The notes beneath the pieces were generated by a model. It was given only the letters and a program-made list of their open reading frames with translations. It made no database searches and was not told the DNA's origin. Position numbers and translations under genes: made by a program. Below, piece after piece: positions 5,706 to 47,835 of a stretch of 64,000 bases of DNA. Source of the DNA: Leeuwenhoekiella aestuarii (GTDB taxonomy: Bacteria; Bacteroidota; Bacteroidia; Flavobacteriales; Flavobacteriaceae); assembly GCF_004104055.1 (NCBI RefSeq), contig NZ_QOVJ01000001.1, positions 310,001 to 374,000 of the forward strand, in the 5' to 3' direction. How positions within the stretch are numbered: position 1 is the first letter of the stretch; the number at the start of each line of letters is the position of its first letter.

Positions 5706-8465
5706 TTATTGGTTATTTGAATTTTTATCAAACACGTCATCAATTACGCGCTGATGTCTTCTCTTAAAACGTACAGAACTTCCTGCGGCAGGTGCCCCGT
5801 AAAACTTACGGCTGCAAATTCTGAATTTTTGCGCTTCAGGTAAATGCATCAATAAGTGACCATAAGCTCCCATATTACGTGGCTCTTCTTGAGCCCACAC
5901 AACATCGTCTGCATTTTTATATTTTTCTATAGCCGCTCTAATTTCATTTTTAGGAAGTGGAAACAACTGTTCTACTCTAACTAAAGCAACATCATCACGA
6001 CCTAACTCTTCGCGTTGTGCCAGCAGATCATAATAGAATTTACCGGTTACAAATACGAGTGTTTTTACGTTATCTACTTTTACTTCTGAATCATCTATAG
6101 TCATCTGGAAACTTCCGTTAGCCAACTCTTCTTTTGTAGAGATAACTTTAGGGTGTCTCAACAAACTTTTTGGAGTAAAAACAATAAGCGGCTTTCTAAA
6201 GTTAGTCTTTAATTGACGACGTAGTAAGTGGTAGAAGTTTGCGGGTGTAGTACAATCTGCAACGTACATATTATCTACTGCACACAGCTGTAAGTAACGC
6301 TCCATACGTGCCGAAGAGTGTTCTGCTCCCTGACCTTCATAACCATGAGGCAATAACATGACCAGACCGTTTTGAAGTTTCCATTTATCTTCTGCAGCAG
6401 AAATGTATTGATCTAACATAATCTGTGCTCCGTTGCTGAAATCACCAAACTGCGCCTCCCAGATAGGTAGCGTTTTTGGACTCGCCATGGCATACCCATA
6501 ATCAAAACCTACAACGCCATACTCAGAAAGTAGCGAGTTGAAAATATACATATGCCCTTGCTCTCCTTCGAGATTATTAAGCAATACGATTTCTTCTTCG
6601 CTATCTTCTACTTTAGTTACCGCGTGACGGTGTGAGAACGTACCACGCTCTACATCCTGCCCGGTCATACGCACATCAAAACCTTCTTTGAGTAACGAAC
6701 CGTAAGCCAGTAATTCTGCAAGACCCCAGTCTATTTTATTATCATCAAAGTACATCGCGCGACGTCCTTCAATAATCTTATTTATTTTACGCAAGAACTT
6801 TTTATCTTCCGGAAGCTTTGTGATTGACTTCGCAACTTCTGTAAGACCCTCAAGATCAAAAGTGGTATCTACGGGCTTCATCATTTCATCTTCAGTGGCA
6901 GGCTCAAAACCTTCCCACTCGTCCTGCATAATAGCCGTTATACGTGTAGTATCTTCTTCACGAGATTTTTCTAACTTCTCTTCGAGTTTGTCTTTATATT
7001 CCTCTTCCAGCTGCTTAACATAATTGTCATCAATCACGCCTTCAGACTTTAAACGATTTGCATATAGATCTCGAGCATTATCGTGCTTAGCAATTGCTTT
7101 GTATAATTTAGGCTGTGTAAAACGCGGCTCATCACCTTCGTTATGTCCGTATTTACGATATCCCAAAAGGTCAATAAATACATCACGGCCAAATGTCATT
7201 CTGAAATCTAGTGCAAAAAGCGCTGCGTGCACTACTGCTTCTGCATCGTCTGCATTCACATGAAGCACTGGCGACAAGGTGGTTTTAGCAACATCTGTAC
7301 AATAGGTTGAAGAACGCGCATCCAGATAATTTGTGGTGAAGCCTATCTGGTTATTGATCACAATATGAATAGTACCTTTTGTAGTGTACCCATCTAATTG
7401 TGCCATTTGTATCACTTCATAAACAATTCCCTGCCCTGCAATTGCAGCATCACCGTGCACAACAATAGGTAGAACCTCTTGCGGATTGTCAAAGTGATGA
7501 CGGTCTTGTTTTGCTCTAGAAATACCCTCAACTACAGCACCCACAGTCTCTAAGTGAGACGGGTTTGGCGCAATATTGATGTTGATCTCTTTTCCGCTAT
7601 CAGTAAGGCGACTTGAAGTCCAACCTAAGTGATATTTTACATCTCCGTCAAAAACTTCCTGATCGTAATCTTTACCATCAAACTCACTAAAGATGTCTTT
7701 AGCATTTTTCCCGAAGATATTTGTTAAGGTATTTAAACGACCCCGGTGAGCCATACCCATCACAAACTCTTTTACACCAAGATCTGCGGCAGCTTCAATA
7801 ATCGCATCTACAGCCGGAATAAAACTCTCACCTCCTTCTAAAGAGAAACGCTTTTGACCTACATATTTTGTATGCAAAAAGGTTTCAAAAGAAACAGCTT
7901 CATTTAATTTTTTTAGAATCTTCTTCTTAGTCTCTGCAGAAAAATCAGGATGATTATCATTGATATTGAGTTTATCCTGAATCCACTGAATCTCTTCAGG
8001 TTTTCTAATAAACATATATTCTACACCAATAGATTCACAATAAATCTTCTCAAGATGTATAATAATTTCTCGAAGCGTAGTAGTCCCAATACCCAATATT
8101 TCACCAGCAGTAAAAGTGGTATCTAAGTCATTCTGACTCAATCCAAAATTTGCCAACTCTAATGAAGGAGTATATTGTCTACGATCACGCACGGGATTTG
8201 TTTTAGTAAACAAATGCCCACGAGTTCGATAACCGTCAATTAGTTTTACAACCTGAAATTCTTTTTGAAGGTTTTCAGGAACACCCGAACTGGTAGGTTG
8301 AGGAGCAACATCTGGTGCTAAACCACTTTCTTCTATTCCAAAGTCAAATCCCTGAAAAAAAGCTCTCCAACTGGGTTCTACACTATCAGGATGCTGTAAA
8401 TATTTATCGTATAGTTCTGCGAAGTATGCAGTATTTGCTGCATTTAGAAATGAAAATCTATCCAT
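5706..8465 (-). CDS. sucA: 2-oxoglutarate dehydrogenase E1 component
   Basis: Thiamine-diphosphate-dependent decarboxylase of 2-oxoglutarate. The N-terminus (MDRFSFLNAANTAYFAELY then HPDSVEPSWRAFFQGF) is the short E2-binding region typical of E1o. Further on are GMAHRGRLNTL, the TPP-binding segment VHGDAAIAGQGIVYEV with VINNQIGFTT, the LPHGYEGQGAEHSSARMER segment and the C-terminal QEEPRNMGAYGHL. Length 919 residues fits the family. The start at 8465 is preferred over the in-frame ATG at 8531 because the family begins there and a -7 element lies at 8507-8514. First gene of sucA-sucB. Confidence 0.97.
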   Translation of the reverse strand: MDRFSFLNAANTAYFAELYDKYLQHPDSVEPSWRAFFQGFDFGIEESGLAPDVAPQPTSSGVPENLQKEFQVVKLIDGYRTRGHLFTKTNPVRDRRQYTPSLELANFGLSQNDLDTTFTAGEILGIGTTTLREIIIHLEKIYCESIGVEYMFIRKPEEIQWIQDKLNINDNHPDFSAETKKKILKKLNEAVSFETFLHTKYVGQKRFSLEGGESFIPAVDAIIEAAADLGVKEFVMGMAHRGRLNTLTNIFGKNAKDIFSEFDGKDYDQEVFDGDVKYHLGWTSSRLTDSGKEININIAPNPSHLETVGAVVEGISRAKQDRHHFDNPQEVLPIVVHGDAAIAGQGIVYEVIQMAQLDGYTTKGTIHIVINNQIGFTTNYLDARSSTYCTDVAKTTLSPVLHVNADDAEAVVHAALFALDFRMTFGRDVFIDLLGYRKYGHNEGDEPRFTQPKLYKAIAKHDNARDLYANRLKSEGVIDDNYVKQLEEEYKDKLEEKLEKSREEDTTRITAIMQDEWEGFEPATEDEMMKPVDTTFDLEGLTEVAKSITKLPEDKKFLRKINKIIEGRRAMYFDDNKIDWGLAELLAYGSLLKEGFDVRMTGQDVERGTFSHRHAVTKVEDSEEEIVLLNNLEGEQGHMYIFNSLLSEYGVVGFDYGYAMASPKTLPIWEAQFGDFSNGAQIMLDQYISAAEDKWKLQNGLVMLLPHGYEGQGAEHSSARMERYLQLCAVDNMYVADCTTPANFYHLLRRQLKTNFRKPLIVFTPKSLLRHPKVISTKEELANGSFQMTIDDSEVKVDNVKTLVFVTGKFYYDLLAQREELGRDDVALVRVEQLFPLPKNEIRAAIEKYKNADDVVWAQEEPRNMGAYGHLLMHLPEAQKFRICSRKFYGAPAAGSSVRFKRRHQRVIDDVFDKNSNNQ

Positions 8466-28370: not shown

Positions 28371-28556
28371 CAATAATCGTATTTTGTGCTGCAAAGATGT
28401 TTCTTAAGAAGCTGTAGCCGGTTAATCCAATGTTATGAATTCGTAATGCCAGAGTTACATCATGGTTATCTTAATGTTAAGTGATTTTTGAGCAAGCGCT
28501 AAATCATTAGATTAAAATTTGGCAATACTGTATCTTGCCAAAAATTGCCTATTATG

Positions 28557-29888
28557 ATGAACTGGGAACATTTGCTCTCTCTAAAGAGACAGGGAGACAC
28601 CGCAAAAAGACTGCGTATCGAACAGGATGATACCCGTCTTGGATTTGAAGTAGATTATGACCGGATTATATTTTCTACGCCCTTTAGAAGCCTTCAGGAT
28701 AAGACGCAAGTCATCCCCCTTTCTAAAACAGACTTTGTTCATACACGCTTAACACACAGTATGGAAGTTTCGGTTGTGGGACGTTCACTGGGGAGAATGG
28801 TGGGCAAACAACTCCTTGAGAAATACCCGCATCTGGAACAGGTTTACGGCTATCGCTTCAATGATTTTGGGGCTATTGTTGCTGCTGCGGCACTGGCTCA
28901 CGATATCGGGAATCCACCTTTTGGGCATTCGGGAGAGAAGGCGATTGGGGAGTTTTTCAAATCGGGTTATGGTAAACGGTACAAAGACAGTTTAACCGAA
29001 AAAGAATATCAAGACCTCATCAAGTTTGAGGGTAATGCTAATGGCTTTAAGGTGCTCTCCCAAAGCAAACCGGGAGCTCAGGGGGGCTTGAGACTTTCGT
29101 ATGCGACTCTGGGTGCTTTTATGAAATATCCAAAAGAGTCGCTTCCGCACAAACCCACAGATCACATTGCAGATAAAAAGTACGGCTTCTTTCAGTCTGA
29201 AAAAGAACTTTTTGCTGATGTCGCTCAAGAACTCGGCTTGTTGAACAGAAGCGAGACTGATGATTTAAGTTGGTCACGCCACCCTCTTGCTTATCTCGTT
29301 GAAGCGGCAGATGATATTTGCTACACCATTATTGATTTTGAAGACGGTATAAATTTAGGACTCATCCCTGAAGAGTATGCGTTGGAGTATATGGTTAAAC
29401 TCGTTGGCAACACCATAGACCGTAACAAATACAATGCGTTGCAGGAAACTTCAGATCGGGTGAGCTACTTACGCGCACTTGCGATAGGCACATTGATTAC
29501 TGAAAGTGTTGAGACCTTTATGAAGTATGAAGAAGAGATTCTCGCCGGTACGTTCAGTCAATCTTTAATAGACAAAAGCAGTTATCAGGCACAAATCACC
29601 GACATCATCAACCTCAGTATCAATCGCATTTACAACAGCCGCGAAGTGATCGAAAAGGAAATTGCCGGTTATGAAATCCTTTCTACACTCCTTGAAGCAC
29701 GTTGCAAGGCACTAGACAATACAGATACCCATTACAACCAACTCATTCAGCAGCTTCTGGCTCCGGTAGATAAATCTGAAAATACGTTGTACGAAAACCT
29801 CATTCAGATTTGTGCCGAAGTCTCAACAATGACAGACGGTAAGGCCTTACGCAATTACAAAAAGATAAAGGGATTGGATATTAAGTAA
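28557..29888 (+). CDS. dgt: Deoxyguanosinetriphosphate triphosphohydrolase-like HD protein
   Basis: dNTPase that splits dGTP or other dNTPs into deoxynucleoside and triphosphate. The metal-binding HD motifs are visible: RLTHSMEVSVVGRSLG (first His), ALAHDIGNPPFGHSGEKAIG (His-Asp), and a later Asp in YLVEAADDICYTIIDFEDGI. About 444 residues, the length of the long Dgt group. Two adjacent ATGs occur at 28554 and 28557; I use the second, while a TTG nine bases before the first is an unlikely start. Divergent from the TonB receptor. Apart from dNTP balance, such enzymes can restrict phage, but nothing here points to that. Confidence 0.9.
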   Translation: MNWEHLLSLKRQGDTAKRLRIEQDDTRLGFEVDYDRIIFSTPFRSLQDKTQVIPLSKTDFVHTRLTHSMEVSVVGRSLGRMVGKQLLEKYPHLEQVYGYRFNDFGAIVAAAALAHDIGNPPFGHSGEKAIGEFFKSGYGKRYKDSLTEKEYQDLIKFEGNANGFKVLSQSKPGAQGGLRLSYATLGAFMKYPKESLPHKPTDHIADKKYGFFQSEKELFADVAQELGLLNRSETDDLSWSRHPLAYLVEAADDICYTIIDFEDGINLGLIPEEYALEYMVKLVGNTIDRNKYNALQETSDRVSYLRALAIGTLITESVETFMKYEEEILAGTFSQSLIDKSSYQAQITDIINLSINRIYNSREVIEKEIAGYEILSTLLEARCKALDNTDTHYNQLIQQLLAPVDKSENTLYENLIQICAEVSTMTDGKALRNYKKIKGLDIK

Positions 29889-43061: not shown

Positions 43062-43279
43062 CTAATTTTAAGGTCAGTTTAGTTCGATTTTCAATTTAAT
43101 GTGTTTCGGTCAAAATGCACCACAACTCGTTTTATCCACATTAAATATAGCCATATCCCTCAAAATTTACGAGATAGCATCACTTTTTGACGGTGCTATC
43201 CGTTGAGATCTGATAAGATTTTGTAAGATACGGTACACTAAAAACTGACTCATCTCGCTGAGTACTGGTCCCCAGGCTG

Positions 43280-43296
43280 CCGCCAGTCTGTGGCGG
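43280..43296 (+). repeat. REP-like hairpin, left side of the RAYT remnant
   Basis: CCGCCA-GTCTG-TGGCGG. Its core CCGCCAGTCTGTG occurs again in reverse orientation at 43861-43873, so the two bracket the transposase remnant as an inverted pair. Confidence 0.7.
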
Positions 43297-43323
43297 GTGG
43301 TTAGCAATACGCGTATTGATCTA

Positions 43324-43690
43324 TTAACCCATAAATCCCATGGCATCTGTTTTGATAACCGTAGGATCATCCTGAAAATTTCTGGCACTGGAGTACTTCC
43401 AAGCTATAGGATTGGTAACAAAACCAGATTTCACCAGATTGTTATGAATATATTCCAGTTTTTGTTTGATGACTTTACTCCTCCAAAGTTCAATGCGTTT
43501 ATTGTGATGCTGCCAAAATGGATGTTTGAGTAACATTACCTTTATTTCCGGCAGCCCTTTCAAACATCCAAAGAAGCCATTCTTTGCTACGTTCCTGTGA
43601 CTTTTCTAAAATAGCCTCAATCACTGCTTTTGATGTAAATTTTTTAAAATCTCTTATCAAACCTGAAGGATCATCATGTGCAGACAGAAG
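43324..43690 (-). pseudogene. REP-associated tyrosine transposase (RAYT, IS200-like) remnant, frameshifted
   Basis: Two frames together give the C-terminal half of a Y1/RAYT transposase. The first part reads GLIRDFKKFTSKAVIEAILE then KSQERSKEWLLWMFERAAG; after a one-base frameshift near 43530-43555 the second reads PFWQHHNKRIELW, KVIKQKLEYIHNNLVKSGFV and WKYSSARNF. These are hallmark RAYT segments. The N-terminal half with the HUH motif is absent; the fragment begins next to the REP-like end at 43691. So it is doubly broken and cannot be active. RAYTs process REP sequences, which fits the inverted REP pair around it. Confidence 0.85.
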
Positions 43691-43732
43691 TTAACTACCT
43701 CAGGGCAAGCCTGTCTGTCCGACTAAGGCATC
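43691..43732 (+). repeat. REP-like dispersed repeat, copy 3 (left end only)
   Basis: TAACTACCTCAGGGCAAGCC then TGTCTGTCC-GACTAA-GGCA. Matches the left ends of copies at 22153 and 29885, but the middle and right end are missing; it joins directly to the RAYT remnant. Confidence 0.65.
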
Positions 43733-43860
43733 AATCCAATGGACGGTAGCCAAGGAAACGCAATAGGGCGCTGTAGGGTTGTGAACTTTATAAGTGCTAC
43801 GCATCCTATTAAGATCAGGTTTTAGTGGCTCTGTTAACGCGCTTTATAAGCGCCACCAGT

Positions 43861-43873
43861 CACAGACTGGCGG
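43861..43873 (-). repeat. REP-like end, right side of the RAYT remnant
   Basis: CACAGACTGGCGG, the exact reverse complement of 43280-43292. The surrounding CCAGT-CACAG-ACTGG can form a hairpin. It lies 21 bases before the stop of the HhH gene. Confidence 0.7.
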
Positions 43874-43893
43874 TAGCGGGGGTCTACTTAATT

Positions 43894-44529
43894 TTAAAAT
43901 TCCAATACATTTTGAAATGAGTTACCTGACATATAGTTCCAGATACTATAATCTATATCTCTTCTAGAAACATTTAGCATATCCGCTGTAAATTCTACTA
44001 TTCGTTTAGCGCTTTGGTAACTATTGTAATCAATTTCAGCTTTATTCAAAAAATTAATGATATGTCTATCAACCGCAATTGTTTCAACATGCATAAGCTT
44101 AAAGAAGTAATCAATTGTTTTGTCACCAATTCCCGGTATAGATTTAAAATATTTTAAATTTGAACTATCATTTAAATAATCTAGTAATTCACTGGTAGTT
44201 TGTATAGAGCTTTCATCTAGAAAATTAATGACTGATTGAAATCTTTTTAATTTTATATGATTCTTCCAATTCAAAAAACTTTCTAAACCAACACTATTGA
44301 TTGTAAAAATTAAATTTTCAAGGTTATCAGCTTCTTCAAAATTGTTGTACACTCTTAAAACTCTGGGCAAAACCACTGTTTTATAATTCAAACCGGCTTG
44401 TAAAATAATATCCGTCAAGACAGCTCCTAGATGGTTATTATAGAAACAAATATTGCTTCTAATTAAACTAAAGTCATGTTTACCCTCTATAAATTGAATT
44501 AATTTATTTATTTCAATATTTTGACTCAT
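43894..44529 (-). CDS. HhH-GPD (endonuclease III/OGG-like) protein
   Basis: 211 residues. The C-terminal half has a helix-hairpin-helix with GPD-type active site: SIPGIGDKTIDYFF places Lys137 where endonuclease III has its catalytic Lys, and AVDRHI places Asp154 as the catalytic Asp. So it could be a bifunctional base-excision glycosylase/lyase, or a relative using the fold on another nucleobase substrate. No iron-sulfur Cys cluster follows, unlike Nth. It is last in the operon; its ATG overlaps the stop of the QueC-like gene (ATGA). HhH/OGG-like proteins accompany QueC-like proteins in type IV CBASS, which supports a common pathway. Confidence 0.8.
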   Translation of the reverse strand: MSQNIEINKLIQFIEGKHDFSLIRSNICFYNNHLGAVLTDIILQAGLNYKTVVLPRVLRVYNNFEEADNLENLIFTINSVGLESFLNWKNHIKLKRFQSVINFLDESSIQTTSELLDYLNDSSNLKYFKSIPGIGDKTIDYFFKLMHVETIAVDRHIINFLNKAEIDYNSYQSAKRIVEFTADMLNVSRRDIDYSIWNYMSGNSFQNVLEF

Positions 44530-45155
44530 TCACTTAGTCTTTTCAAAGCTTCTAATCTATCAACGCAATTTGGACAAGCACCACAAGGTACATCCGGAGA
44601 TGCCTGACAAGAAAAGGTTTTGCCTATTGGGGCTCCTAATTCAATTCCTAATTTCGCGACTTCAAATTTAGAATAATCTCTGAAGGGCATCTCGATTTTA
44701 ACAGAGCCATAGTCTTTAAGAAGACTTTCCAAATTATTAAAAAAATCGTTTGAACAATCAATTTCTTTTGCGTGATTGCTGTTGATAAATGCAGAATATA
44801 CGTTGTTCAAGCCTAATGTTCTAGCAAATGAGGCTGCAACGGTCAATATTAAAACATTCCGATATGGTATATATAAATCATCAGCAGTTATACTTTCTTC
44901 CCAAAGATTAGAAGCCTTTATGAATTTAGAATTTGAATATTTATAAATATCTGAAATATCTAATATTTCAATTTTACTTACGTATTGCTCAGGAAGTACT
45001 TTATTCAACCGATCTAATTCAGTCTTAAAACAATGCTGACCATAATTAATTATCAATGGAACAAATTCAACACATTTTTTCATAAATAAGTAACATAGAG
45101 TAGTCGAGTCTAAACCTCCAGAAACTAAAATCACTCCCTTTTTAAAGTCTTGCAT
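44526..45155 (-). CDS. QueC-like 7-cyano-7-deazaguanine synthase family protein
   Basis: 209 residues, an adenylating PP-loop enzyme. The PP-loop SGGLDSTT begins at residue 12; the substrate-binding segment IPYRNVLILTVAASFA matches VPGRN in QueC; zinc ligands are Cys183, Cys191, Cys194 and Cys197 (CQASPDVPCGACPNC). Real QueC turns carboxy-deazaguanine into preQ0. No queD, queE, queF or folE gene is near, and the neighbours are not queuosine genes, so a specialised role is more likely. In type IV CBASS a QueC-like enzyme (Cap9) is reported to attach a deazaguanine to an N-terminal glycine. A possible substrate lies two genes upstream at 46443-46808. Its start overlaps the PfkB-NDT gene by 25 bases. 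Confidence 0.88.
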   Translation of the reverse strand: MQDFKKGVILVSGGLDSTTLCYLFMKKCVEFVPLIINYGQHCFKTELDRLNKVLPEQYVSKIEILDISDIYKYSNSKFIKASNLWEESITADDLYIPYRNVLILTVAASFARTLGLNNVYSAFINSNHAKEIDCSNDFFNNLESLLKDYGSVKIEMPFRDYSKFEVAKLGIELGAPIGKTFSCQASPDVPCGACPNCVDRLEALKRLSE

Positions 45156-46450
45156 ATTTTAGAACTTTTAATAAATGTTTCACAAATTATTTCATCCATA
45201 TTGTTTGTTACGAGGCTGCAAGAGTGTGTTAACATACAATTTTGAGCTAAGTTAAATGGATCGTAGAGCAAAACTGGTATTTGTTTTTCAGATGCAATTC
45301 CAATTTCAACTAGGGTTCCAGGGTCATTATATAACAATACACAAATGACAATTTTACATTTATTCAAAAGTCTAATATCTTCGTTGTAATACTGTTGCTT
45401 CTGTTGTGAAGAATCACTTTCTTTCATTTGACCATTTACTTTTATTGGTCTTATTGGTGAAAAATTATGATATAGTAAACTTTTTTCTAAGGTATCGATC
45501 AAACTAGTATCAACAAAGTCAAAATCAGGAGCCGCAATATAAATATTAATATCTTTTCTATTTTCCCAATTCAATATAGTGCCTTGTAGACCTACTAAAT
45601 CATTAGTAGGTATTTTTAAAATTTTTTCAACTGAATTTTTAAAATTCATTGGGAATGTTGTGCTTGCATATTCCGCAGCAACAAAAGAAGCTAAGGCTAG
45701 ATTCTCATCAACCTTACTATAAATAGCAGATTCAAAAATTGCATTAAAAACATCACCTACTCCTACCGAATGTTGAATGGGCATGGTTTGAGAAGAAACT
45801 TGATGGACTTTATCTTCAATAAAATCATAAAGCCTTGTTCCGCCTCTATTTTCTTTTAAAACTAGTTTTTCGCATAGTCTTTCAAATAGTGAAGCAAAAG
45901 TTTTAAAATCAAAATTATTGGTCTCTATATATTTTAAAAAAATCTTACTTGATGTTGATATAAATATATTTTTGAATTTAAAATTGAGAGCACATAAATC
46001 TTCTAGACTTAAATTTGCTACTTCAAGACTAATTGGATATACTCCCAGTTTTCCTAGAATTCTTGAAATATCATATTCCCCTGAAGTAATTAGAAAACTG
46101 TCGCATTTTGGCGACTCGAAATCCAAGTAATTATATCTGTTATTTTCTCTTAAGATTAAATCATATCCTTGATCACCAATTTCTCGAGCTTCCTCAATTA
46201 AAATTAAATTAGGAGCATTTAATGTGTCTGCAACTTTAAATAGTTTTGGGCTATCGTAATGATCAAAATAATTATGTATACGTTCATCAAGATATTTGGG
46301 AGAAATATATCCAAGACTGTAATTTGCCGAGATTGCCCATAGACCTCTTGCAGAATGTGATACTCCTCCGAGTCTCATCTTCAAATTTTCGTCTTTATTT
46401 TTTAGAGTCACATCAACTAAAATATCTCCTATTAGGCAAATATTATGCAT
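45131..46450 (-). CDS. PfkB-type kinase fused to a nucleoside 2-deoxyribosyltransferase-like domain
   Basis: 439 residues from MHNICLIGDILVDVTLKN. Residues 1-290 are a ribokinase/PfkB fold: start motif CLIGDILVDV, LGGVSHSARGL, and the anion-hole/catalytic GVGDVF with Asp233. Residues 300-439 resemble nucleoside deoxyribosyltransferases: INIYIAAPDF at the base site, a nearby LLNKCKIVICVLL strand, and DPGTLVEIGIA with the candidate nucleophile Glu382. I do not know this fusion from housekeeping metabolism. It could phosphorylate a nucleoside and cleave or exchange its base, making or destroying a modified base or nucleotide. The ATG at 46450 overlaps the previous stop by eight bases; the frame to 46462 is less likely. 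Confidence 0.8.
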   Translation of the reverse strand: MHNICLIGDILVDVTLKNKDENLKMRLGGVSHSARGLWAISANYSLGYISPKYLDERIHNYFDHYDSPKLFKVADTLNAPNLILIEEAREIGDQGYDLILRENNRYNYLDFESPKCDSFLITSGEYDISRILGKLGVYPISLEVANLSLEDLCALNFKFKNIFISTSSKIFLKYIETNNFDFKTFASLFERLCEKLVLKENRGGTRLYDFIEDKVHQVSSQTMPIQHSVGVGDVFNAIFESAIYSKVDENLALASFVAAEYASTTFPMNFKNSVEKILKIPTNDLVGLQGTILNWENRKDINIYIAAPDFDFVDTSLIDTLEKSLLYHNFSPIRPIKVNGQMKESDSSQQKQQYYNEDIRLLNKCKIVICVLLYNDPGTLVEIGIASEKQIPVLLYDPFNLAQNCMLTHSCSLVTNNMDEIICETFIKSSKICKTLKRE

Positions 46451-46808
46451 TTGGCGAAACATTTATGATAATTGAATTAATTGGTGTTGTTGATGTGTTT
46501 GAGACTAATCCAGAATAGGTATTTTCTGTCAAACATTGACGTAAATAATTATACTTGGTTGGTAGATTTCCAATTTCCTCATTATCTATTAAGGCAACTA
46601 TTCTGTGCCCATTGAACTCTATAATTGCTTCCGTATTAACGTTAGGTAGATGCTGTTTTGAACTAAAATATTGAGATGAATCAACATCTTCTAACTCCGT
46701 CCTAAATGCTCTATTGCATTTGTTTTCTAACGATTCTCCACCTTGCTTAGAATCACCCCCTGAAAATCCCTGATAATCAGTAAAATTACCTGACCCTGTA
46801 CTGCCCAT
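46443..46808 (-). CDS. Small protein with Met-Gly start and Gly/Ser-rich tail
   Basis: From the ATG at 46808 it has 121 residues and begins MGSTGSGNFTDYQGFSGG, so Met removal would expose Gly. After the flexible tail (to about residue 27) comes a compact, probably beta-rich domain (TEAIIEFNGHRIVALIDNEE, IGNLPTKYNYLRQCL, INSIIINVSP). An in-frame ATG at 46859 would add 17 residues and bury the glycine; conservation should decide. The family is not one I can name, but short Gly-tailed proteins beside QueC-like genes (QatB type) are known, and this is the best candidate substrate of the QueC-like enzyme. Its stop overlaps the start of the PfkB fusion. Base composition is AT-rich like the rest of this operon. 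Confidence 0.65.
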   Translation of the reverse strand: MGSTGSGNFTDYQGFSGGDSKQGGESLENKCNRAFRTELEDVDSSQYFSSKQHLPNVNTEAIIEFNGHRIVALIDNEEIGNLPTKYNYLRQCLTENTYSGLVSNTSTTPINSIIINVSPNA

Positions 46809-46899
46809 TGATTTAGTTTTTAAATTATTAATTATTTTTTGGTTAGATGTTTGTGACATTTATTTGAGAAAAGAAAATCCTTTCTACAGTAGAGTTTTA

Positions 46900-47835
46900 T
46901 TAATTATCCCTTTGGTCGTAAATTTTTAGTGGTGAATCTGTCTTATAAAGTACTTTACCAGAAGGAACTACTTTACTAGAACCATTTAAATGCGTTTCTT
47001 GGTCATCAAAAAATATATGAGCCCCAAAAGCTTCCAATACTTTATCTTTTGATAACCCTCCCATAAAATATGCTTCATCTACATATACGCCCCAATGTCT
47101 TAAAGTTTTTACTACTCTCATATGACTTGGAGCATTTCTCGCAGTTACAATAGCTATTCTGAGAGGGGTAAGCTCTATTGTTGTCGGTAAAAATTCTTGA
47201 ATTTTTGACAATTTTCTCAATAACTCTGCAAAAGGGCCATCATTTAAGGGAACGTCCTCATTTTTTGATTCATGCTCATGAAATGCATCAATACCTTTCT
47301 CTTTATAAATTTGCTCTGATTCTTCTGAAAAAACGACTGCATCTGCATCAAAAGCAAATTTAACTCTATCAACCTCTGGCATATAGTTTTTAGGAGGATC
47401 ATAAATTAAAGCCGTAGCGCAATTAGATGTATCGCTCAATTTCTGAACATCCTTCTCATCTTTTGAAAGAAATAAATCAACATCAAATGCATCTATAAAA
47501 GGAGATAGAGGTTCACCTCCTGAAAATGCACATCTAGTAATTGAAAGATTAAAATGTTTAATTGACTTTAAAACTCTCACCCCCGTTTCAGGACTATTTC
47601 TTGACATCACTACCACCTCTACAATTTGCTTAGATGCAATATCATTTAACTTAAGTAGACTTTTAATCAATGGAAATGCCGTGCCCTCACTAAGTAATTC
47701 ATCCTCATGCTCAAGCTGATATTTTCTAAAGGCAGCTATATTTTCATTTTTAAATATTTCATTTTCCTTTTCCAAATTAAATAAAGCTCTTGATGATACA
47801 CCAACCACTAGTATTTGAGAAAAATCTAAAGGCAT
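46900..47835 (-). CDS. Cytosolic 5'-nucleotidase (cN-I-like family)
   Basis: 311 residues of the bacterial 5'-nucleotidase family (PF06189 type), HAD fold. Motif I is AFDADAVVFS (Asp163, Asp165), followed by the long cap region (EKGIDAFHEHE), TARNAPSHMRVVKTLRHWGV, and FFDDQ with the metal-binding Asp pair near 277-278. It removes phosphate from nucleoside monophosphates, often IMP, GMP or AMP. It stops 91 bases before the Met-Gly start of the next gene (41 if the longer start is used) and reads the same way, so it may feed nucleosides to the PfkB/NDT and QueC-like steps. It could also be an unrelated neighbour. Confidence 0.9.
   Translation of the reverse strand: MPLDFSQILVVGVSSRALFNLEKENEIFKNENIAAFRKYQLEHEDELLSEGTAFPLIKSLLKLNDIASKQIVEVVVMSRNSPETGVRVLKSIKHFNLSITRCAFSGGEPLSPFIDAFDVDLFLSKDEKDVQKLSDTSNCATALIYDPPKNYMPEVDRVKFAFDADAVVFSEESEQIYKEKGIDAFHEHESKNEDVPLNDGPFAELLRKLSKIQEFLPTTIELTPLRIAIVTARNAPSHMRVVKTLRHWGVYVDEAYFMGGLSKDKVLEAFGAHIFFDDQETHLNGSSKVVPSGKVLYKTDSPLKIYDQRDN

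Follow-up and report, generated by a model that had tools for sequence, protein, structure and literature searches.

A four-gene cassette pairing a QueC-like enzyme with a glycine-tailed HIRAN-fold protein is a candidate protein-nucleobase conjugation system

Among the described systems that use a QueC-family enzyme, type IV CBASS (cyclic oligonucleotide-based antiphage signaling system) carries an HhH/OGG-like protein, Cap11. The same system is served by Cap9 and by the TGT-family protein Cap10, both of which have been described (PMC11996544), while for QueC cluster 4 a role in purine salvage has been proposed (Libby et al. 2026, PMC13329287). Here, we analyze 64,000 nucleotides of Leeuwenhoekiella aestuarii DNA (contig NZ_QOVJ01000001.1, positions 310,001 to 374,000; this whole stretch is called the window), in which four adjacent genes encode a small glycine-tailed protein, a fusion of a PfkB-like kinase with an NDT-family domain (PfkB-NDT), a QueC-like enzyme, and an HhH-GPD protein. 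Judging from sequence, we lean toward reading this cassette as a protein-nucleobase conjugation system, the third based on QueC, and probably an antiphage one. Gene content, gene order, the tail, the predicted folds, and the motif changes are direct observations; N-terminal conjugation is their best reading because the tail offers a free Gly, the QueC-like enzyme lacks the canonical motifs but has the spacing of Cap9, and the gene order is fixed.

The cassette resembles type IV CBASS in its Gly tail, which in CBASS is borne by the CD-NTase (MGG), in a QueC-family enzyme with the YxQ(x)5E spacing of Cap9, and in the corresponding places given to a putative enzyme of base exchange and to a predicted HhH protein. 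It differs in that its acceptor is of the HIRAN type, PfkB-NDT stands in the base-exchange place, no TGT-family Cap10 is present in the operon, and its QueC has lost the base-stacking Tyr that Cap9 keeps (YxDC); no CD-NTase was detected in the four genes and the adjoining nucleotidase gene (hidden Markov model [HMM] search), in two genes just downstream (Pfam only), or in nine further neighbors (PADLOC). Qat likewise combines a QueC-family enzyme with a protein, QatB, that has a disordered N-terminal tail (MGTS), but QatC is about 400 amino acids (aa) long, with N- and C-terminal extensions and a Thr/Thr base site, and QatB is helical (PMC13279940), whereas the cassette enzyme has 209 aa and the acceptor model is beta-rich and HIRAN-like. 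Neither a QatA ATPase nor a QatD TatD nuclease was found in the five genes (Pfam, PADLOC) or the nine neighbors (PADLOC). In QueC cluster 4, the enzyme also lies beside a PF00294-PF05014 protein, but its zinc motif is CH(x)5CxxCxGCxK rather than the C(x)7CxxCxxC of the window, and the available text names no tailed partner (PMC13329287). Canonical QueC, which acts in preQ0 synthesis, shares PF06508, the SGGxDS loop, and four Cys with the window enzyme, but the latter has lost YxQxHxxE and YxDC, falls in a separate clade, and has no queD or queE adjoining it in the window. By the features compared, the cassette is neither CBASS nor Qat.

An earlier note, made from the letters of this DNA alone, had proposed a system of five genes on one strand, the fifth being a nucleotidase. 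Open reading frame (ORF) and HMM analysis bore out all five ORFs, on the minus strand, together with their coordinates and motifs (Table). The overlaps given in the note hold for HhH/QueC (4 bases) and QueC/PfkB-NDT (25 bases), while that between PfkB-NDT and the small gene is 8 bases only if the kinase starts at 46450 and 20 if it starts at 46462.

Table. Cassette genes and the adjoining nucleotidase, in window coordinates
Feature	Position	Strand	Basis or remark
Four-gene cassette	43894-46808	-	tailed protein, PfkB-NDT, QueC-like, HhH-GPD
Tailed HIRAN-fold protein, 121 aa, putative acceptor	46443..46808	-	ORF open up to ATG at 46859
Tail codons MGSTGSGNFTDY, predicted acceptor end (Gly2)	46773..46808	-	conservation in 88 sequences; compare L270 cyclase N-terminus
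PfkB-like kinase fused to NDT-family domain, 443 aa	45131..46462	-	start 46462 or 46450; PF05014
QueC-like enzyme, 209 aa	44526..45155	-	PF06508 5.7e-37; own clade; motifs
HhH-GPD DNA glycosylase/lyase-like protein, 211 aa	43894..44529	-	profile match, predicted fold, K137/D154
5'-Nucleotidase PF06189 (PADLOC candidate PDC-S08)	46900..47835	-	neighbor only, not conserved part

A genome collection, scanned with an alignment of kinase-NDT proteins (123 stretches, two peptide patterns), yielded 74 loci, near-copies included, and in 66 of them the tail, NDT, QueC, and HhH genes follow one another in the same order and on one strand. The eight others comprise L051, L063, and L066, in which a single ORF spans NDT and QueC, and L064, all four without an HhH match, together with L022, L072, L079, and L080, which have missing or cut genes. 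The full order also appears in 13 of 15 loci from a viral collection (near-copies included), the other two lacking only the HhH match, with sequence that stops shortly after QueC, and in loci L009 to L011 of a plasmid collection, in which copies stem from Neotabrizicola, from Cupriavidus, and from two chromosome-sized Proteus records. Carriers among the scan loci include members of Bacteroidota, Pseudomonadota, Bacillota, and Acidobacteria, with one Cloacimonadota metagenome-assembled genome and one Mycoplasmatota species, some of these placements being presumed from genus names. Since order and strand are common to 66 of 74 loci in several phyla, the four genes form a real unit. The co-occurrence elsewhere on which the earlier note had staked its proposal was found in the gene-order check of the 74 genome loci, and an independent cassette built on QueC, with a Gly-tailed acceptor and apart from both CBASS and Qat, is supported, its gene order being conserved in several phyla. 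The fifth gene, in contrast, drops out: the nucleotidase (PF06189 at 6.4e-120), which lies 91 bases upstream of the 46808 start (40 from 46859), had no relative in any other locus searched (phmmer, E<=1e-4; L002 is the window's own) and is ruled out as a core part. Kinase-NDT matches occur in 7 of 395 Bacteroidota genomes, the window's included, two with the four-gene form and five with a sister form described below; in E. coli, a distant-mode search with one Kosakonia query only found no match in 5,426 genomes. In the literature collection searched, no paper describing the four-gene cassette was found.

For the small gene, the likeliest start is the ATG at 46808, which yields MGSTGSGNFTDY, rather than 46859, because the former start is common to its relatives; 46859 is the lesser possibility. 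We compared 88 tailed sequences, window included, extracted with a pattern that required [MV]G[ST] and, loosely, F/L/I and Y/L further on; this pattern was failed by L060, in which the frame ahead of the tail is unclear, and by L100, which is cut at a contig start. G2 is present in all 88, M1 and Y12 in 87 each, S3 in 86, and D11 in 82, and the consensus of the tail is mostly MGS[TS]GSGxFSDY. The start codon is ATG in 87 and GTG in one, L096, whose omission from alignment A5 makes M1 "invariant" there by choice. No in-frame start lies upstream in 43 of the 88, and one is present in 45, including the window; counting ATG only, none lies upstream in 69 and one is present in 19, again including the window. 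A similar tail, MGGSGGGFFS, begins the annotated CBASS cyclase beside QueC (Cap9) in L270. In the AlphaFold model, residues 1 to 30 have a predicted local distance difference test (pLDDT) score of about 50 and are predicted to be disordered, and the beta-rich domain that follows has block means of 95 to 98. The first 12 Foldseek matches are all to chains of either lp_0118, which we take to be a HIRAN protein, or the HIRAN domain of HLTF, in some cases with DNA (probability 1.00, E 2.7e-3 to 1.5e-2, TM-score 0.49 to 0.58 by query length), and the C-terminal part of the tailed protein has a predicted HIRAN-like fold. The HIRAN domain of HLTF binds DNA 3' ends. A sequence search of the PDB with the tailed protein gave four matches, the best at E 0.01 and none convincing.

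The QueC-like enzyme departs from canonical QueC in its motifs. We built a tree of 100 rows, consisting of 58 of the 88 sequences of the four-gene form (thinned), 16 of the sister form, 25 canonical QueCs from carrier genomes, and one Cap9, with no QatC. The spacing YxQ(x)5E occurs in 58 of 58 rows of the four-gene form, the window included, versus 1 of 25 canonical rows, while YxQxHxxE is found in none of the 58 versus 24 of 25, and YxDC in none versus 25 of 25; in its place the window reads EIDC, and 56 of the 58 fit [EA][IV]D[CA]. Given these canonical counts, the three motifs separate the groups and the zinc spacing does not. In E. coli QueC, the substitutions Y35A (in YxQxHxxE) and Y131A (in YPDC) abolish function (PMC13329287). 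In L270, the Cap9 that shares an operon with the annotated CBASS cyclase shows the YxQ(x)5E spacing yet retains YxDC. At D133, where Cap9 has the Asp that reads the edge of the guanine, 93 of 94 aligned rows retain the residue; five of the 94 rows belong to the sister form. The four-gene form and the sister form each make up one clade (100/99), and the canonical QueCs fall weakly on one side of a branch (45/89), long branches and unsettled bootstrap restricting deeper claims. Because the lone Cap9 sits on a long branch, the tree is silent on which group is nearest to it. When further Cap9 sequences were sought, a Cap9 fragment retrieved 19 records from the plasmid collection, one of which was followed, and a viral scan gave one partial match.

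In the fusion protein, the NDT domain is recognized by HMM (PF05014, 9.8e-12). PF00294 (PfkB) does not reach the kinase domain at E<=1, and the PfkB call comes from motifs together with weak matches to sugar kinases, namely 2-keto-3-deoxygluconate (KDG) kinase (NCBIfam, 0.001), 5-dehydro-2-deoxygluconokinase (0.028), and ribokinase (0.059). G11, D16, D236 (in GVGD), and E385 (in GTLVEIG), numbered from 46459, are invariant in 30 aligned sequences, window included; by family, we take Glu385 of the NDT domain and Asp16 and Asp236 of the kinase to be catalytic. As a single sequence, the HhH protein matches HhH-GPD weakly (Pfam 0.082, NCBIfam 0.002), and its profile matches an 8-oxoguanine (8-oxoG) glycosylase/AP lyase at 8.8e-6. 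Its model (pLDDT 94.1) has MagIII, endonuclease III, archaeal Ogg (an 8-oxoG glycosylase), and MutY as best Foldseek matches, and K137 and D154 are each conserved in 81 of 81 sequences (L070, with a split HhH ORF, left out). In this model, the protein has the predicted HhH-GPD fold with its catalytic Lys and Asp, although no PADLOC family matches it at E<=1.

Flanking genes were compared with controls using PADLOC at 1e-10. Of 306 flank proteins, 198 were chosen, and the scan took in the first 144 of these, from loci L012 to L068, against 143 of 164 proteins from 19 control stretches of carrier genomes. The flank set matched 208 families versus 46 for the controls, a comparison that counts families rather than proteins and for which 25 families were listed per set. 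Flank matches include models for GajA and GajB (presumably Gabija), HamB (presumably Hachiman), AriA, and RT-Toprim; the listed control families are mostly reverse transcriptase models with one member each. This excess is no more than supportive of a defense setting. The dGTPase model PDLC02374 has seven flank members versus one control, and phmmer places dGTPase relatives at most 0.9 kb from the core in 13 loci of unrelated lineages, near-copies included (L019, L028, L032, L042, L052, L053, L054, L056, L064, L068, L073, L082, and L084), on the strand of the core in L019, L028, L032, L064, and L073. A NUDIX gene lies just upstream of the core (about 7045-7557) in the Bacillota loci L051, L063, L064, and L066, all without an HhH match. 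In Bacteroidota, L012, L013, L015, and L023 (about 5764-7610), together with L003, share an upstream pair of genes of 159 to 172 and 430 to 449 aa, which in L003 resembles, by eye, a PIN protein and an ABC-type ATPase. Judging from nine neighbors within about 8 kb (see below), the window cassette is not visibly within a defense island. A dGTPase homologue (PADLOC 9e-66) is encoded at 28503-29885 on the plus strand of the window, about 14 kb from the cassette, and downstream of the cassette, at 43250-43890, a GC-rich palindrome-like motif occurs twice, and there is also what resembles, by eye, a broken transposase remnant.

We envisage the following sequence of events. The small HIRAN protein would first lose its initiator Met, freeing Gly2. 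The QueC-like enzyme would, by homology with Cap9, adenylate a guanine-like base at its carboxylate, the base most likely being 7-carboxy-7-deazaguanine (CDG) or something closely related, and attack by the Gly2 amine would yield an N-terminal nucleobase amide. More speculatively, PfkB-NDT could occupy the place that TGT-family Cap10 has in type IV CBASS, its NDT domain moving or removing a deoxyribosyl group and its kinase domain phosphorylating a sugar hydroxyl, on the base or its sugar. The HIRAN fold may then hold DNA, at ends or damage, and the HhH-GPD enzyme may excise a base and perhaps cut the strand, so that, speculatively, the output would be aimed at DNA. A role of the cassette in defense is likewise speculative.

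Several observations weigh against conjugation of this kind. The fold matches are modest: no Foldseek match of the tailed protein is at E 1e-3 or better, nor does any match of the HhH protein reach that value (probability 0.99 to 1.00, best E 1.4e-3, TM-score about 0.5, root mean square deviation 6 to 11 A). The base-stacking Tyr of Cap9 and QueC is lost in 58 of 58 rows, with Glu there in the window. The zinc spacing C(x)7CxxCxxC, present in 58 of 58, is shared by 8 of 25 canonical rows and is hence not diagnostic; it was ruled out as a sign of kinship with Cap9. Nine window neighbors within about 8 kb gave no PADLOC match at 1e-5, and in many loci an effector gene is not evident. Further points concern the base. 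Among 51 carrier genomes (those of 49 of the 74 loci, the window's genome, and G025), 13 have no QueE-like match at 1e-5, so that a recognized CDG maker is missing there. A VUT-family gene is present in 12 of these 13 (G440 has neither), making QueE or VUT present in 50 of 51, but the VUT family is associated with later intermediates, preQ0 among them, and the 50 of 51 may do no more than mirror the usual synthesis or salvage of queuosine.

As 38 of the 51 carriers do have a QueE-like match (weak in G429), CDG is a plausible base for the majority of them, whereas for a quarter it is unproven. The earlier note had seen no TGT and no queD/E/F; neither queD nor queE adjoins the QueC-like gene in the window, yet the window's genome holds two QueD-type (PTPS) proteins, one QueE-like protein, and one TGT, all away from the cassette, the sole TGT match being on contig C3 and the window on C1. 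Tail conjugation may be right with a different substrate, another carboxylated base, nucleoside, or nucleotide that PfkB-NDT makes or trims before it is joined to Gly2. We regard this as the foremost of the unlikely alternatives, favored by the lost Tyr, by the QueE-less carriers, and by the likewise altered base-recognition residues of QatC (PMC13279940), and opposed by retention of the guanine-edge Asp and by the QueE-like matches in most carriers.

An elaboration of the conjugation reading, which we hold to be rather improbable, would place a deazaguanine on Gly2, have the NDT domain add deoxyribose from deoxyguanosine, and have PfkB phosphorylate the sugar. The HIRAN protein, a binder of DNA ends in this scheme, would then carry a protein-linked deoxynucleotide that could be incorporated into phage DNA, or become trapped on it, and be recognized by HhH-GPD, and neighbors that free nucleosides or nucleotides (dGTPase and NUDIX, and the 5'-nucleotidase in the window) would feed the donor.

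The sister form bears on whether the cassette is metabolic. In each of its 17 QueC-bearing loci examined (L004 to L008, L179 to L188, L190, and L191; L181 is a near-copy of L180), a cluster-4-like QueC is accompanied by PfkB-NDT and a small tailed protein, while L189 has NDT only. The tail is mostly MSG, with MTG in L185 and MGG in L004, L183, and L190, the last beginning MGGSGGGFSPS. Tail and HhH profiles of the four-gene form find no counterpart in L004 to L008, but hhalign relates the two tail families (probability 96.8, E 3e-10). The zinc spacing is C(x)6CxxCxxC in 16 of 16 rows, and the published cluster 4 zinc motif fits (for example, in L007), while the published YGQ(x)6E (PMC13329287) reads YGQ(x)5E in our rows. 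Partners vary and include an HhH protein resembling OGG and, in many cases, an ORF labeled SagB-like by eye; in the Moraxella copy a dGTPase overlaps queC, and in Halorubrum TIR genes lie nearby. A search of 398 Pseudomonadota genomes gave six matches at 1e-40. In L179, a dGTPase-like gene adjoins the core, and in L191 (5402-9336), one QueC is flanked by two tailed proteins and two PfkB-NDT matches. A VUT transporter was discarded as a part of this form, having been seen on two Rhodobacterales plasmids that closely resemble each other, where a further ORF separates queC from VUT. A cassette for the salvage of purines or deazapurines, the kind of role put forward for cluster 4 (Libby et al. 2026, PMC13329287), would suit the kinase, NDT, and QueC, all metabolic families, and neighbors such as dGTPase and NUDIX that handle nucleotides. 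It has no obvious place for a conserved tailed HIRAN-type protein or a DNA-glycosylase-type partner, and the rarity of the cassette (2 of 395 Bacteroidota genomes for the four-gene form) and the flanks, which match more defense models than controls, are at odds with it, as is the sister system, whose tailed protein, OGG-like HhH, and frequent SagB-like gene speak against a pure salvage role. We consider salvage improbable.

Might the QueC-like gene instead replace the housekeeping QueC? It is the only PF06508 match in its genome (no other at E<=0.001), which, as noted, has QueD-type, QueE-like, and TGT proteins. However, PF06508 matches nothing at E<=1e-15 in 58 of 60 genomes of the window's family, and the two exceptions are the window's own genome and G461, whose match equals the G404 system copy in place and E-value; moreover, a canonical QueC (185 bits or more) stands beside the system copy in 25 of 51 carriers. 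By this survey, the carriers, the tree, and the motifs, the window enzyme is not a housekeeping QueC, and we give replacement hardly any credence; of the two signs that the earlier note had named for such a role, the genome indeed has no other queC, but the enzyme lies outside the housekeeping group. Equally far-fetched is a nucleotide-depletion defense in which NDT and kinase destroy deoxynucleosides and the tail is a scaffold or regulator. The dGTPase-like genes adjoining 13 cores (near-copies included) and the NUDIX genes of four Bacillota loci suit it, but it leaves QueC and the conserved tail unexplained, and only a minority of the loci have a neighboring dGTPase.

Protein-nucleobase conjugation is a recent finding, shown in type IV CBASS and proposed for Qat. 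The conjugation reading of the cassette predicts an adduct on Gly2, a requirement for host queE, and dependence on Lys137 of the HhH protein. If it is true, the cassette would add a third architecture, found across several phyla, whose acceptor is of the HIRAN type, whose NDT domain stands where TGT would, and whose further partner resembles a glycosylase. This would make the chemistry a general module, and a QueC group now labeled purine salvage would move into the conjugation systems.

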